Assembly (NCBI GenBank): GCA_016215705.1
Contig: JACRIR010000157.1
Span: 1 to 20,025, forward strand
Direction of reading: 5' to 3'
Origin: Candidatus Poribacteria bacterium
Lineage (GTDB): Bacteria; Abyssobacteria; SURF-5
Length of the DNA: 20,025 nucleotides
Under the pieces are notes generated by a model, which was not told where the DNA came from, ran no database searches, and was given only the letters and a program-made list of their open reading frames with translations. The position numbers were made by a program, and so were the translations under genes. Numbering within the stretch: the stretch's first letter is position 1; the number at the start of each line of letters is the position of its first letter. Shown piece after piece: positions 6,203-19,537 of this stretch.

Positions 6203-8479
6203 ATGTTGCACTCTGTGAACACGTCAAAACGACCATTGGCAAGGGTTCTTCTGGTTGCCGTGGCTCTGATTCTGCTGCAATCGGCCTGGGGCTCGAGGAG
6301 TGATCGCGCGGAAGGCGCTCAAATGAAGCGACTCAGGCGTTCTCAGCAGACGAACGCAATGATCAAGGTTCAGCCCGTCGCACAGGTCACGGACACAATG
6401 GCCGAGATGATCCGGCGAGATGAAGCCCTCAGAGCAAAGGGGCTTGCTCCTCACGTGTCCGAGCCGGCGCCCTTCTTGGCGGTTCCTCACGATCTGCCGG
6501 TTCCACCCGGCGCCATTATCCAGGGTCCTTCCGCGGCGGCGACTGCCGACCCGGCGCTGCCCGAAGCGGCCGCCGGGCCTCTGGCGCCGGCCTTGACCGC
6601 AACCTTCGAGGCGCTGCCCGACAATGGCGTGTGGATTCCGCCCGACACCAATGGGGCCGTCGGACCGAACCATCTAATGGTTCCTCTCAACAGCCAGGTT
6701 CGCGTGCAGACGAAAACCGGAGTCGTGCTCAGCACGGTCAGTCTCAGCACGTTCTGGGCTTCTCTGGGCGTGAGCGACGTGTTCGACCCGAAAGTCATTT
6801 ATGATCCGACCAGCGGGCGGTTTCTCTTTGTAGCGTGCGCGGAGAGACGCACGGCGGCCTCGAGCATGCTTTTCGCCGTTAGCGCAACCAGCGACCCGAC
6901 CGGCGCGTGGTATCTGTGGCAATTGGACGGAGATGCCTCTAATACGAATTGGGTGGATTACCCGAACATCGGAGTGAATACTAACTGGATCACCTTCACG
7001 TCCAATATGTATTCGATGGGCGATGCTTTCGCAGGCGTCAACATCTGGATCGTAAATAAGTCGACCGCTCTGGATGGAGGCGCCGTTTTGACAAATTTGA
7101 TATACAGGCCGGGTATGGGTGGCACGCACGTGCCTTGCCTGACGTATTCGGCCTCCGACCCTGTTTTGTACATCCTCAACAACTGGAACGGTTCCTCTGG
7201 ACTGCTCAGGCTTTACACGATTACGGGAACCGCGGACGCGCCGACGTGGACGGCCACGTCGATCTTTCCAACCTCCTCGCCGTGGAGTTGGAATTGCCCC
7301 GATGCGCCCCAACTCGGCTCCTCCAATGGAATCGACACGAACGACGACCGGCTGATGAACGCCGTGCAGCGCAATGGCAGCTTGTGGTGCGCCCACGCAG
7401 TCGCACTTCCCGCTTCGGCGCCCACACGGACCGCCGCGAAATGGTGGCAGATAAATCCAATCACCGGCGCGGTTATTCAATCCGGCGTAGTGGAAGACAC
7501 GATATCAGGCATGTTCTACTACTTCCCGTCGATCGCCGTCAATGCGAACAACGAGGCGTTGCTCGGCTTCAGCGGCTCATCATCCACGACATACGCTGGC
7601 GCATACTATACCTTCCGCGATTCGACTACGCCTGCGGGCGCAATGCAGACGGTTTCGCTGATGAAGGCGGGAGAGGCGCCTTACTACAAGACATTCGGTG
7701 GTCCCCGAAACCGGTGGGGTGACTATAGCGCCACATGCGTTGATCCGGTCGATGATACGACATTATGGACGATCCAGGAGTACGCCAAGGCGCCCGAGAG
7801 CACGTGGGGCACATGGTGGGGTAAGCTGGAACTCGTGCCGGGACAACGGCCGATTATTTCCCTCAGCGCGAATGCGTTGGAGAACACGGTTATGATAGGT
7901 GGCAATGCCGCGCCTCAGAGCTTCGAGGTGTGGAACTCCGGCGAAACGTCTCTCGCGTATTCGATAAGCGACGACGCATATTGGCTCTCATGCAACCCCA
8001 CAAGCGGCGAATGCGAGACCGAGCAGGATACGATTACCGTCCAGTATGCCACCTCGATGATGACTCCTGGGATCTATATGGCCACGATCACCGTGCGAGA
8101 CCCCACAGCCACCAACAGCCCGCAGGAAATCGAAGTGACCCTCCGCGTCGTCGAGGCCGGATTGACCGGCATAGACATGGTTTCTCCGTGGAACGGGACA
8201 GCGCTTGCGTCCGCGCCGGACTTCGTCTGGATAGCGACCGGCGGGCTGAGCAACGCCTTTGCCGTCGACATAGGATTCGCGCCGACGGGGCCGTTCTACT
8301 CGACGTTCGAGAACCTGCATCAACCCATTTACGAAAACCATTGGATGATGCCGGCGACGATATGGAACCGCATCGCATCGGGCACACGGCTTTATTGGCG
8401 TGTGCGCGGGATGGATATGAGCGCCCAATCGCCGGCCGTGATAACGAGCGATGAGGTCTGGTCGTTCACGAAACGATAG
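6203..8479 (+). CDS. Large secreted protein with propeller-like, BACON-like and Fn3-like regions
   Basis: The 758-aa product has a signal peptide (about residues 1-31, RPLARVLLVAVALILLQSAWG), a low-complexity Ala/Pro stretch (about 70-130), then a long region opening with PPDTNGAVGPNH (about 138-149), an opening I associate with secreted, probably beta-propeller-like bacterial proteins. Residues about 549-652 look like an Ig-type BACON-like domain (SFEVWNSGETSLAYSIS, WLSCNPTSGE, GIYMATITV). The last 106 residues resemble a fibronectin-III-like module (LYWRVRG, WSFTKR end). No catalytic residues are evident, so adhesion or binding is a guess. AGGAGG lies 8 nt before ATG 6203, so I use this start over the longer frame from 6155. 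It is probably monocistronic, with its own promoter and a 41-nt palindrome downstream. Confidence 0.75.
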   Translation: MLHSVNTSKRPLARVLLVAVALILLQSAWGSRSDRAEGAQMKRLRRSQQTNAMIKVQPVAQVTDTMAEMIRRDEALRAKGLAPHVSEPAPFLAVPHDLPVPPGAIIQGPSAAATADPALPEAAAGPLAPALTATFEALPDNGVWIPPDTNGAVGPNHLMVPLNSQVRVQTKTGVVLSTVSLSTFWASLGVSDVFDPKVIYDPTSGRFLFVACAERRTAASSMLFAVSATSDPTGAWYLWQLDGDASNTNWVDYPNIGVNTNWITFTSNMYSMGDAFAGVNIWIVNKSTALDGGAVLTNLIYRPGMGGTHVPCLTYSASDPVLYILNNWNGSSGLLRLYTITGTADAPTWTATSIFPTSSPWSWNCPDAPQLGSSNGIDTNDDRLMNAVQRNGSLWCAHAVALPASAPTRTAAKWWQINPITGAVIQSGVVEDTISGMFYYFPSIAVNANNEALLGFSGSSSTTYAGAYYTFRDSTTPAGAMQTVSLMKAGEAPYYKTFGGPRNRWGDYSATCVDPVDDTTLWTIQEYAKAPESTWGTWWGKLELVPGQRPIISLSANALENTVMIGGNAAPQSFEVWNSGETSLAYSISDDAYWLSCNPTSGECETEQDTITVQYATSMMTPGIYMATITVRDPTATNSPQEIEVTLRVVEAGLTGIDMVSPWNGTALASAPDFVWIATGGLSNAFAVDIGFAPTGPFYSTFENLHQPIYENHWMMPATIWNRIASGTRLYWRVRGMDMSAQSPAVITSDEVWSFTKR

Positions 8480-8589: not shown

Positions 8590-8630
8590 GAAAATGGGGG
8601 ACACGATGCCGCATCGTGTCCCCCATTTTC
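8590..8630. repeat. 41-nt perfect palindrome (GGGGACACGATG family, copy 2)
   Basis: Twenty-base arms, 8590-8609 and 8611-8630, are perfectly complementary around a single C at 8610. The core reads GGGGGACACGATG on either strand. It lies 110 nt after the stop of the large secreted protein gene and could end transcription from both sides, though no clean T-run follows. The rest of the 8480-8863 spacer holds the repeats at 8510, 8642 and 8805 and no gene. Confidence 0.85.
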
Positions 8631-8641
8631 TTCATTCGTGT

Positions 8642-8668
8642 CTGTAGAGGCGCGATTCATCGCGCCCG
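8642..8668. repeat. Single-arm hairpin repeat (TGTAGGGGC family)
   Basis: This 27-nt sequence matches 931-957 at all but one position (A for G), which weakens only one pair of its hairpin. The inverted partner arm present at 887-913 is missing here. Confidence 0.8.
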
Positions 8669-16548: not shown

Positions 16549-17499
16549 CTAAGAGTTGCGGACGCGCCTAATTTTTGCTGCAATCTCTCTCAAATGCTCC
16601 GGAGTGGTCCCGCAGCACCCGCCGAGAACCTTGACTCTTCTAACAATCTCACGGAGGTGCTCGGGCGTTGTGCCGTCGCAGCCGCCGAGAATGCTGACTC
16701 CTATGTCGAGAAGCGGGAGCATCTTGTCCGCCATTTCCATCGGCGTCTCGGGATAAACGGTCTTATCGCCTTCGAGGCGGGGCAAACCCGCGTTCGGCTT
16801 CGCGAAGAGGAATTTCGATGTAGACCCGGACATTTCCTTCAGAATCTCTGCGATTCCGTCCGGTCCGGCGCCGCAATTCGCGCCCACGATGTCGGCTCCG
16901 TACTCTTCCAGCGAGCGCGCGGCCGTTGTCGGGTCCACGCCCATCATTGTGCGGTAGCCGCGCTTGCCCAGGCTGAACGTCATGGATGCGAACACCGTGC
17001 AGTTCGTGCCCTTTTTTGCGGCCTCGATTGCGGCCCTCGTTTCATTGAGGTCCGACATGGTCTCGATGCAGATAATATCGGCTCCGCCTTCTTCGAGTGC
17101 CTGTGCCTGCTCGAGAAACGCGGCGACAACTTCTTCATACTTCAGAGCGCCGTACGGCTCGATGAACTCGCCGGTAGGGCCTACTGACCCGGCGACGTAG
17201 TGGCCCGCCGCGGCGACCGCGCGGGCGTTCTCGACCGCCTTGCGATTCAACTCGCGCGTCCTTTCACCGAGTCCGTAGCGCGCCAGTTTCAGGCGGCTGC
17301 CCCCAAAGGAATTTGTTTCGACGATGTCGCAGCCCGCCTCGAAGTAGGAGCGGTGAATTTCGCGCACGACCTCCGGATGCGAGGCGTTCCACTCTTCGGG
17401 GCATTCCCCGATCGAGAGTCCTCGCGCTTGCAGCATCGTCCCCATTGCTCCGTCAAACACGAGCGTCTTGCCCGTCTTTAGTTCATCCAGGATATTCAT
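16549..17499 (-). CDS. Homocysteine S-methyltransferase domain protein (split MetH N-terminal module)
   Basis: The 316-aa TIM-barrel protein moves a methyl group to homocysteine using zinc. DGAMGTMLQ (16-24), ETNSFGGSR (61-69), GSVGPTGEFIEPYG (104-117) and GANCGAGPDG (206-215, ligand C209) are typical of the MetH first domain and BHMT family. The C-terminal GGCC zinc motif is duplicated: LGGCDGTTPEHLREI (271-285) and LGGCCGTTPEHLREI (292-306), 21 residues apart; the first copy has Asp for the second Cys. This adds about 21 residues. The protein lacks the folate and B12 domains of full MetH. ATG 17499 has no strong ribosome-binding site. It lies 104 nt after the B12-activation gene in a leftward operon. 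Confidence 0.9.
   Translation of the reverse strand: MNILDELKTGKTLVFDGAMGTMLQARGLSIGECPEEWNASHPEVVREIHRSYFEAGCDIVETNSFGGSRLKLARYGLGERTRELNRKAVENARAVAAAGHYVAGSVGPTGEFIEPYGALKYEEVVAAFLEQAQALEEGGADIICIETMSDLNETRAAIEAAKKGTNCTVFASMTFSLGKRGYRTMMGVDPTTAARSLEEYGADIVGANCGAGPDGIAEILKEMSGSTSKFLFAKPNAGLPRLEGDKTVYPETPMEMADKMLPLLDIGVSILGGCDGTTPEHLREIVRRVKVLGGCCGTTPEHLREIAAKIRRVRNS
16582..16689 (-). repeat. Intragenic duplication of the zinc motif
   Basis: Codons 271-285 (16689-16645) and 292-306 (16626-16582) encode near-identical 15-residue stretches, with 14 of 15 residues the same. The DNA copies have diverged at synonymous positions, so the duplication is not recent. Confidence 0.85.
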
Positions 17500-17603
17500 A
17501 ATTTGGTCTCTGGTCAGAGCAGGCGAAAGGAACAAGGCGAAAGGGATAGAACAAATCCGAAACAGTTCTCCTTTTATCTTTTCCCTGCGTATCTCCCCTT
17601 TTT

Positions 17604-18437
17604 TTATTTCCGCCGGTAGCTGCAATTCTTGAAGCTGCATGCATGGCACGGCCGCTCTTGTTGCGGGCGGTTTTTGTCGAGGAAATCGGGAACACGATGG
17701 GGCATCATGTCCCCCATTTTCTCTGGCATCATATCCCCGGTTTTCCCGGCTGCATCGCACACATTGTTCTCGATCAAAGGAATCACGAAAGAGACCGATT
17801 TCCTCGGGGTCATCATGCAGTGGTCGTTCAATGACACGCCGATGGGCGAAGGATTGAGAAGCGCGAAAACAGCGCGCTGACCGCTCACGTCCCACTCGCC
17901 GTAGCCGGGGCTTTGACGACGCGCAGCCGATAGCCCGCAGGCTTGCGCCTTCGAGCAGATGATGGCCGTGAGCCTTTCGGCTGCGTCCTCGGCGGCGCGG
18001 CTTGCGGTCACGTCGGCGACCATGCCGCGCAGAAAATCGTTTTCACGGAAATATCGCTCGATAAGCGCGTCGACTTCAGGGCCGATGGTGCAGACGGCGA
18101 CCGCGATTGATCGGGCATCCTCGATGAAGCCGGCGAGCGTTTCGTCCTCAATCTCGATGCTGCCGAATCTGATGACGCCGCTTGCGGTCGCAGCGTCCGA
18201 GGCTGAGCCGTGGTTTCGGTGGTCAATTTCCGCGAGCGTGTAGATTGCCCTTCCCTGCATTACCTCTTCGCACCGGCGCTTTTCCGAGAGGATAAGCTCC
18301 ATGATCGCGGGTGACACGAGACCGCTCACGGTCGTGCCGGTCGCGGCTGCGCCGCTTGGGGCGTAGCCGAGCGGGCCCATAAGGTCGTCGACGTCGACGC
18401 TGAACTCTATGTCGATTATTTCAGGTTGTGCCGACAT
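17604..18437 (-). CDS. Vitamin B12-dependent methionine synthase activation-domain protein
   Basis: The 277-aa protein resembles the C-terminal reactivation domain of MetH as a stand-alone subunit. QSPGYGEWDVSGQ (175-187) is the SAM-binding signature, and NPSPIGVSLNDHCMMTPRKSVSF (195-217) is the family's second block. It should reductively methylate inactive cob(II)alamin with SAM. The C-terminus has CHACSFKNC (C264, C267, C272), a likely metal or iron-sulfur site. Residues about 231-252 (GDMMPEKMGDMMPHRVPDF region) are encoded by a palindromic repeat and look like an insertion between core and cysteine tail. ATG 18437 has GGAAAG upstream; the start overlaps the UroD-like gene's end by 17 nt, so translation is coupled. 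Confidence 0.88.
   Translation of the reverse strand: MSAQPEIIDIEFSVDVDDLMGPLGYAPSGAAATGTTVSGLVSPAIMELILSEKRRCEEVMQGRAIYTLAEIDHRNHGSASDAATASGVIRFGSIEIEDETLAGFIEDARSIAVAVCTIGPEVDALIERYFRENDFLRGMVADVTASRAAEDAAERLTAIICSKAQACGLSAARRQSPGYGEWDVSGQRAVFALLNPSPIGVSLNDHCMMTPRKSVSFVIPLIENNVCDAAGKTGDMMPEKMGDMMPHRVPDFLDKNRPQQERPCHACSFKNCSYRRK
17682..17747. repeat. GGGGACACGATG palindromic repeat, copy 3, inside a gene
   Basis: 17688-17714 forms a hairpin (GGG-ACA-GATG paired with CATC-TGT-CCC, two mismatches), followed by CCATTTTCT as at 8621-8629. A second half unit, GGCATCATATCCCCGG (17725-17740), follows in tandem. It is read in frame as residues 231-252 of the B12-activation protein, where it gives the repeated GDMMP. 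Confidence 0.8.
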
Positions 18438-19404
18438 CGAACTTTCCGAATTGTTTGAAGGCCTCGAACATGATTTCCTTTTGCTCCTGCGACACCTGTA
18501 TCGCAGCCGGGTCGTCATAGTCGCCGAGGATGAAGCCTCCGTCCGGCGTCGCCCACTGTTCGAGCAGCAGTTTCGCTTCCTGCCCGATCTCTTCGCGCGT
18601 TCCGTGGGGGAGCGTCGCCTGTATGTCGACCAGCGACTCGAAGCATATTTTTCCCCGGAAGCGGCGTCCGATTTCCTCGATGCCGAGCGCGCGCGGCTGC
18701 TGCAAGTTGATGACGTCGAGACCGAGGTCGATGAACTCGGGGATCAGGTCGTTCACGCGGCCGCAGGAATGCAGCCAGAAGTGCATGCCGGCCTCGTGTG
18801 CGGCGTCGAGGAGTTTCTTGTAGCGGGGTCTGAAGAACTGCCGCCACATGGGCACGCTGATGAAGAGAGATTTCTGCGTCCCCCAGTCGTCGGTCATGGT
18901 GACGCCGTGAATTTTCTCCGGAAACCGCTTCGCGTAATTTCGGATGAGCCTGATTCTGAAATCGAGGATGCTGTCGAGGGTTTGCTCGAGGAGCGAAGGA
19001 TTCAGGTAGAGGTCGGCGAGTGTGTCGGTGAATCCGTGAAGGAAATGGAGTTGCTCGAAGATTCCTTGACCAATATATCCGAGCACGTACCGCCCGTCTG
19101 CATAGGGGAGGACCATCTCGATGGTCTCATAGCGCGCGTCGTCATCGGCGTCGGGAAACCGGTGGCTCTTCAGGTCGTCCAGATTCTTTATGGGATGCTC
19201 TTTGACCTGGCCCATGTTGGGGAGGTCAGTCTTCTGCATTTCGCAGCCCCACTCATCTTCACCGGGTCTGGAAGGCTGGTAATCTTTTCCGAATCCGTAT
19301 GCGACGATGTAGGTGTCGTTCACTCCGACTTCGTCGAACCTGATGCCGATGCGCGGAGGTTTTTTGAATTCGATCGCGCGCCGAATGATTTCGTAGCCGG
19401 TCAT
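18421..19404 (-). CDS. UroD-family (MtaA/CmuA-like) methyltransferase
   Basis: The 327-aa protein belongs to the uroporphyrinogen decarboxylase superfamily branch used for cobalamin-linked methyl transfer. TDDWGTQKSLFISVPMWRQFFRPRYK (171-196), HSCGRVNDLIPEFIDLGLDVINLQQP (212-237) and GKICFESLVD (251-260) are typical; H212 and C214 match the zinc HxC motif. The later region reads GGFILGDYDDP (289-299), with no cysteine for a third zinc ligand, so activity may differ from MtaA. A true heme-pathway UroD is unlikely given its operon partners. ATG 19404 has GAGGG five bases upstream; the longer frame to 19494 runs through the promoter. It overlaps the activation gene by 17 nt. Confidence 0.88.
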   Translation of the reverse strand: MTGYEIIRRAIEFKKPPRIGIRFDEVGVNDTYIVAYGFGKDYQPSRPGEDEWGCEMQKTDLPNMGQVKEHPIKNLDDLKSHRFPDADDDARYETIEMVLPYADGRYVLGYIGQGIFEQLHFLHGFTDTLADLYLNPSLLEQTLDSILDFRIRLIRNYAKRFPEKIHGVTMTDDWGTQKSLFISVPMWRQFFRPRYKKLLDAAHEAGMHFWLHSCGRVNDLIPEFIDLGLDVINLQQPRALGIEEIGRRFRGKICFESLVDIQATLPHGTREEIGQEAKLLLEQWATPDGGFILGDYDDPAAIQVSQEQKEIMFEAFKQFGKFDVGTT

Positions 19405-19447
19405 GGTTCCCTCACGAAGACAGCGAAAGAAGCGGAGCAATGTATAG

Positions 19448-19476
19448 ATAATATCAAAAATTGCGAGCGTCTTCAA
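19448..19476 (-). promoter_or_regulatory. Sigma70-type promoter of the cobalamin-methyltransfer operon
   Basis: Minus-strand TTGAAG (19476-19471), a 17-bp spacer and TATTAT (19453-19448). Transcription would start near 19441, about 36 nt before the UroD-like start. There is no room for a cobalamin riboswitch in that leader. Confidence 0.65.
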
Positions 19477-19537
19477 ATCTGGATCACGAATCACGCGAAT
19501 CCGTGAAGCGTAGGACGAATGAAACGAATGATGAAGA

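Follow-up and report, generated by a model that had tools for sequence, protein, structure and literature searches.

In-frame reading of a dispersed palindromic repeat within a B12-dependent methionine synthase activation gene of a Candidatus Poribacteria bacterium

Palindromic elements that enter coding sequence

Mobile palindromes that are read in frame are already known, as Rickettsia palindromic elements (RPEs) and as intragenic REPs. RPEs are palindromic, lie in frame in unrelated conserved genes and encode a conserved peptide, and an RPE-bearing Gmk stayed active (PMC2229807, PMC10969869). REPs are short (20-40 bp) palindromes of high copy number that are mostly intergenic. Di Nocera et al. 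2013 (PMC3733652) found REPs of the GTAG and CGTC types within genes as well, some of them in frame in ORFs as singles, dimers or groups, with the grouped ones coding 20-30 aa in unrelated proteins. In the same paper, the TIR repeats of TIRYT transposases are a sister class of REPs, and the motif GGGGWSAS is common to some TIRYT ends, which make up families of repeats. PARCELs consist of 25-residue amphipathic units arranged in tandem, often in membrane-targeted proteins; they are palindromic coding repeats found across distant microbes, probably through horizontal transfer (PMC2996958). Perfect inverted repeats in protein genes are also reported from Nematomorpha mitochondria (PMC6649704).

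We have analysed a stretch of 20,025 nt (the window), which is one contig of a 5.47-Mb, 270-contig assembly, and which carries a palindromic repeat inside a gene for B12-dependent methionine synthase activation. On the one hand, the repeat is like RPEs in being inserted in frame into a protein gene and missing in orthologs. On the other hand, RPEs are about 100-150 bp long and were described from Rickettsia, whereas the unit here measures 27-43 bp, occurs in several phyla and is mostly intergenic in the window genome. Accordingly, the resemblance to RPEs that had been proposed from the sequence alone holds as a similar way of working and not as membership, since size and host range, and apparently also sequence, differ from those of RPEs. 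With REPs the repeat shares high copy number and intergenic preference (about 320 copies, 7 of 165 genic), but its palindrome is symmetric, while REPs are tagged at one end. The PARCEL form of tandem arrays is not seen: there are one and a half units here and mostly single units elsewhere, in housekeeping proteins. The Nematomorpha palindromes are mitochondrial and not a dispersed bacterial repeat.

A composite palindromic copy in the activation gene

The host gene (17604-18437, minus strand) encodes a B12-dependent methionine synthase activation-domain protein of 277 aa with the likely start MSAQPEIID and a Pfam match to PF02965 Met_synt_B12 (E 8.4e-9). Its neighbours, given for context only, are a URO-D family gene upstream (18421-19494, minus strand, PF01208) and a homocysteine S-methyltransferase domain gene downstream (16549-17502, minus strand, PF02574). 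At the C-terminus of the latter (16549-16680, minus strand), a segment is duplicated in tandem, LGGCDGTTPEHLREIVRRVKV-LGGCCGTTPEHLREI, and one Cys of the GGCCGT motif is lost from the first copy.

A composite of 68 bp at 17679-17746 consists of one full palindrome and an adjoining half copy. The full element (17679-17723) is an imperfect palindrome inside the CDS, GAGGAAATC-GGGAACACGATGGGGCATCATGTCCCC-CATTTTCTC, with a 9-nt outer arm on each side of the 27-nt core GGGAACACGATGGGGCATCATGTCCCC (17688-17714), and this core has one mismatch to the degenerate core of the family. The half copy GGCATCATATCCCCGGTTTTC (17725-17745) is 86% identical to the corresponding part of the full copy. Together, the half and the full copy encode residues 234-252, GDMMPEKMGDMMPHRVPDF (17682-17738, minus strand). 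RNA of 17660-17765 has a folding z of -3.4. The ORF runs uninterrupted through the palindromic stretch, and the conserved tail CHACSFKNCSYRRK (residues 264-277; 17607-17648, minus strand) is kept despite the insertion, with C264, C267, C272, Y274 and R275 invariant in the ortholog alignment. The sequence-only reading had described a repeat that causes no frameshift and lies between the catalytic core and a CxxCxxxxC tail; both points agree with the open frame of the 277-aa protein and with the CxxCxxxxCxYR tail retained after the insertion.

Orthologs of the activation protein are present in G001, G002 and G003, and the window protein is 48% and 43% identical to those of two same-family genomes and 32% identical to that of G003. 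In the two same-family orthologs and in G003, the tails CRECGLQDCMYRR, CQECNFKKCAYRR and CRECTLTNCSYR directly follow the core domain. Compared with these three orthologs, 27-30 extra residues separate the core domain from the CxxCxxxxCxYR tail in the window protein, and most of the added residues, residues 234-252 among them, fall in the stretch of the half and full copy. Thus, the expectation that repeat-free orthologs lack these residues was borne out for a segment of 27-30 residues, but its exact borders, once placed at residues 231-252, cannot be fixed because the nearest ortholog is only about 48% identical, and no target-site duplication could be delimited. At the level of sequence, the activation gene is confirmed to carry the palindrome in frame, and the orthologs support an insertion of 27-30 residues that leaves the conserved residues intact. 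Considering that the same-family relatives are just 43-48% identical in this protein, there is a small chance that an ancestral longer linker was colonised later by the repeat.

Another explanation is a fortuitous likeness between the repeat and a variable linker in the activation protein. The low local identity to the orthologs, which blurs the borders, leaves some room for it. However, all core positions but one match the degenerate family core, and a 1.06-Mb sample contained 148 copies at up to 6 mismatches and 0 matches to the reversed pattern at the same threshold. We consider that chance resemblance hardly comes into question.

The repeat family in the window genome and its proposed mobility

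The family has a 27-nt core, GGGGACACSATGNNGCATSGTGTCCCC, which at up to 3 mismatches gave 323 matches on the plus and 319 on the minus strand of the 5.47-Mb genome. These are mostly the same palindromes read from both sides and represent about 320 copies, while the backwards core pattern gave 0 matches in this genome at the same threshold. The core was absent from 40 other genomes, only 2 of which belong to the same family. Two intergenic copies lie in the window itself, one at 2551-2597 with 22-nt arms that are 91% complementary and an exact core match, and one at 8590-8630 with 20-nt arms that are 100% complementary. That the hairpin family of these two sites recurs inside a CDS had been noticed from the letters; the sequence is as described, and the computed family match agrees. 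Outside the core, the first 8 nt of the two arms pair in 76-92% of the copies, with 40 distinct perfectly paired arms, whereas at the ninth outer position and beyond no more than 45% pair. Core positions 9 and 19 are C-G, not G-C, in 52 copies. Because the arms pair to 8 nt while their letters vary, the unit is a hairpin about 43 nt long that keeps its symmetry while its sequence changes. Rfam gave no match within the window.

Other hairpins stand beside some of the copies. Next to the 8590 palindrome, a second hairpin, GTAG-AGGCGCGATTCATCGCGCCC, occupies 8640-8665, and GGCGCGATTCATCGCGCC-type hairpins adjoin many palindrome copies elsewhere (e.g. L062:15352, L096:1751 and L100:17010). These hairpins look like a classical GTAG-tagged REP family that forms composites with the palindrome. 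Membership of the palindrome itself in the GTAG or CGTC REPs was rejected, as GTAG occurs in 4/132 and CGTC in 8/132 flanks against backgrounds of 5% and 16%, without enrichment. On another contig (L079, G000:C138), positions 6605-6731 hold four palindromic units in tandem, spaced by about 33 nt. In three of them the right arm is a variant (GCACTGTTGCCCC or similar), and the last unit is perfect.

We used a home-made codon-usage gene caller on 1.32 Mb (24% of the genome) for the genic counts. Among 165 copies, 112 lie between co-directional genes, 24 between convergent and 13 between divergent genes, 9 at contig edges and 7 in called genes. The called coding fraction of about 0.80 in the sampled sequence, against 7/165 genic copies, indicates strong depletion from genes, which is if anything stronger because the caller probably undercalls genes. 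Compared with the intergenic background (504 co-directional, 81 convergent and 89 divergent), the copies are somewhat rich in convergent and poor in divergent spacers.

This placement, the very stable hairpin and the outer arms that stay complementary to 8 nt although their sequence varies would suit a functional RNA or DNA signal, such as a bidirectional terminator or an mRNA-stability or supercoiling site, of which the copy in the activation gene would be an accidental overlap. Yet the examined copies have no consistent T-tract after the hairpin, the activation-gene copy lies in mid-gene with conserved coding sequence downstream, and among the sampled Elusimicrobia copies more than half are genic, mostly in one frame. 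Also, the palindrome is missing in both same-family relatives and is therefore not a conserved function. A terminator reading was dropped, as the only match that overlapped the core was weak and close to what shuffled sequence gives. We regard a signal of this kind as unlikely.

Three or four copies in the 24% sample are convincingly inside genes. A GH127 arabinofuranosidase-like enzyme (L078:1525) has an in-frame copy in its PF20736 middle domain, KIGDTMPPIAPVAEADSQKIGDTMKHHVPDF, with the half-plus-full architecture and the frame GDTMKHHVPDF, both as in the activation gene. A phage-type terminase large subunit (L098:1811, G000:C238) carries a perfect 45-nt palindrome in frame just before its RNase-H-like domain, and prophages may ferry the palindrome between hosts. 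With these two genes and dozens in other phyla, the repeat is not limited to non-coding DNA, a limitation that would have spoken against an in-frame insertion. The sequence-only reading thus holds for both observation and interpretation, and the phenomenon reaches further than it had proposed. A copy with non-palindromic flanks in a glutamate-synthase-like protein (L066:6939) was left as doubtful, and the copies of L075 were set aside as they are situated where genes end and are possibly extragenic.

Regarding mobility, the window genome has three Y1_Tnp matches. One Y1 transposase, on contig C28, is flanked by inverted TTATTCCGGGGACA ends similar to the palindrome arms; its ends TTATTCCGGGGACATAATACC share about 13 nt with the palindrome (TTATTC-C-GGGGACA) and are without the CGATGC interior. 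Transposases about 57% identical, with GGGGACAYAATACC-type ends, occur in the palindrome-bearing genomes G041, G042 and G047, and the palindrome-bearing G044 gave no Y1_Tnp match. A nearer published relative than the RPEs are the terminal repeats of TIRYT transposases with the GGGGWSAS motif: the likeness lies in this Y1 transposase between inverted ends, in the self-complementary families and in the GGGGWSAS motif, to which GGGGACAC, the beginning of the core in nearly all copies, conforms. The differences are that no transposase was found between two exact palindrome copies, the link being the end motif only; that the same core spans several phyla; and that the passages reporting intragenic copies name GTAG and CGTC REPs, not TIR repeats (PMC3733652).

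Two loci with Y1 transposases deserve mention. In L061 (G000:C28), positions 1-2450, a gene that looks like a leucine-rich-repeat gene lies between two Y1 transposase genes; these are nearly identical, point the same way and have identical TTATTCCGGGGACATAATACC ends, so that together they might behave as a composite element. L060 (G000:C225) has in positions 1-1060 a different Y1 transposase with inverted GGGGTCAGGTCTTGAA ends, another GGGGWSAS variant, and L198 of the Acidobacteriota MAG G048 holds a relative that is 49% identical and has GGGGTCAGGTCTTG ends.

We suggest that the palindrome is probably a non-autonomous mobile hairpin of REP/TIR type, which a TIRYT-type Y1 (HUH) tyrosine transposase would move by recognising the hairpin. 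One and a half units would have been inserted in frame into the linker between the reactivation domain and the Cys-rich tail, where the insert is presumably neutral to the activation enzyme. Frame-shifting insertions, or those in structured parts, would be purged by selection. A gene could survive such an insertion because the core measures 27 nt, its usual forms are stop-free in every frame and the peptide of the commonest frame, GDTM-x-H-x-VP, is polar and turn-rich.

Copies in other phyla and their reading frame

In public genomes, the identical 27-bp core was found, among the matches listed, in Elusimicrobia, Syntrophales/Syntrophaceae, Deltaproteobacteria and one Acidobacteriota MAG, and one contig of a viral collection also has it. 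The core matches number 94 in the Elusimicrobia genome G041, 7 in G042, and 44, 37, 28, 40, 17 and 1 in the others. The genic counts for the G041 MAG cover about 14% of the genome and targeted loci, some picked by exact core match, which is no threat to the frame count because an exact match does not select for frame. In this MAG, 28 of 48 distinct copies lie inside called genes; as the coding fraction is 0.89, the copies are still depleted in genes (p = 7e-8). One frame is used in 26 of the 28 genic copies (p = 7e-11 against one third) and, counting one copy per gene, in 18 of 20 (p = 2.3e-7). This frame encodes (A-S-A-)GDTM[P/R]HGVP(-V-P). Since the usual core forms are free of stop codons in every frame, stop codons do not account for the bias. 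Other frames are used in HemW, a TPR protein, the terminase and the debranching enzyme. In a protein of about 2,146 aa (L185 18065-18121, G041:C18), two tandem palindromes are read as SAGDTMPHGVSAGDTMPHGVPVP; thus, the palindrome can also expand within a gene.

The G041 inserts were compared with relatives whose identity is mostly 67-93% in the aligned stretches. Against these, the net gain is 8 aa in Hcp (hydroxylamine reductase), 11 in HemW, 6 in an NTP-transferase, 2 in TauE, 3 in NadB and 8 or 11 in the TPR protein. RimO of G041 has two copies of +5 aa each, the first common to G050 and the second private to G041. CysRS of G042 has gained residues compared with G049, and two species likewise differ by the coded palindrome residues in a glycogen debranching enzyme. 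Most Elusimicrobia cases show a net gain of 2-11 aa and not of nine, which indicates that host residues were lost or replaced during or after insertion. The FtsK linker of G049 holds an apparently decayed in-frame version, SAGGAILNGVPAQH, and copies accordingly persist and erode within the protein. Comparison with PDB structures for RimO, Hcp, CysRS and NadB gave no clean gaps, as the structures are too distant.

The use of one frame in nearly all G041 genic copies and the persistence of the decayed FtsK copy could also mean that the peptide itself is selected, GDTMPHGVP being a functional module such as a binding tag and the DNA palindrome its by-product. Against this, 20 of the 48 G041 copies and nearly all copies of the window genome are non-coding, the insert sits at varying places in unrelated hosts (radical-SAM enzymes, a tRNA synthetase, an exporter and NadB), other frames occur, and relatives freely do without the insert. 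We therefore find a selected peptide improbable, even more so than a nucleic-acid signal. Since the host proteins are unrelated and have relatives without the insert, the frame bias is more likely to reflect removal of harmful frames than a positive role of the peptide.

We observed a repeat family, its in-frame reading, its absence from orthologs, parallels in other phyla and a frame bias in one genome, and we consider it quite probable that the palindrome is a non-autonomous mobile element of REP/TIR type that is tolerated in frame and works like the Rickettsia palindromic elements. For the palindrome family, its cross-phylum spread and its single-frame use, we found no description in the open-licence papers searched, and all three seem to be new. 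More tentatively, and with appreciable doubt, one palindromic element might have been moved across phyla by TIRYT transposases and, being compatible with protein (nine codons, open in every frame, a benign nine-residue loop in the dominant one), might recurrently donate new in-frame peptides to conserved enzymes.

If true, this would be a general and ongoing source of bacterial protein insertions outside Rickettsia, from which, apart from scattered intragenic REPs, in-frame palindromic insertions are best known. Here, several phyla have one recognisable sequence in such a role. Relatives of known structure exist for some of the enzymes that carry it (RimO, Hcp, CysRS, NadB), and close relatives are without the insert. 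This makes it testable whether palindromes build protein segments by neutral tolerance or by a coding-compatible adaptation. It is also a warning that mobile DNA can leave its footprints in the predicted proteins of uncultivated bacteria, as unexplained loops such as GDTMPHGVP or GDTMxHHVPDF.
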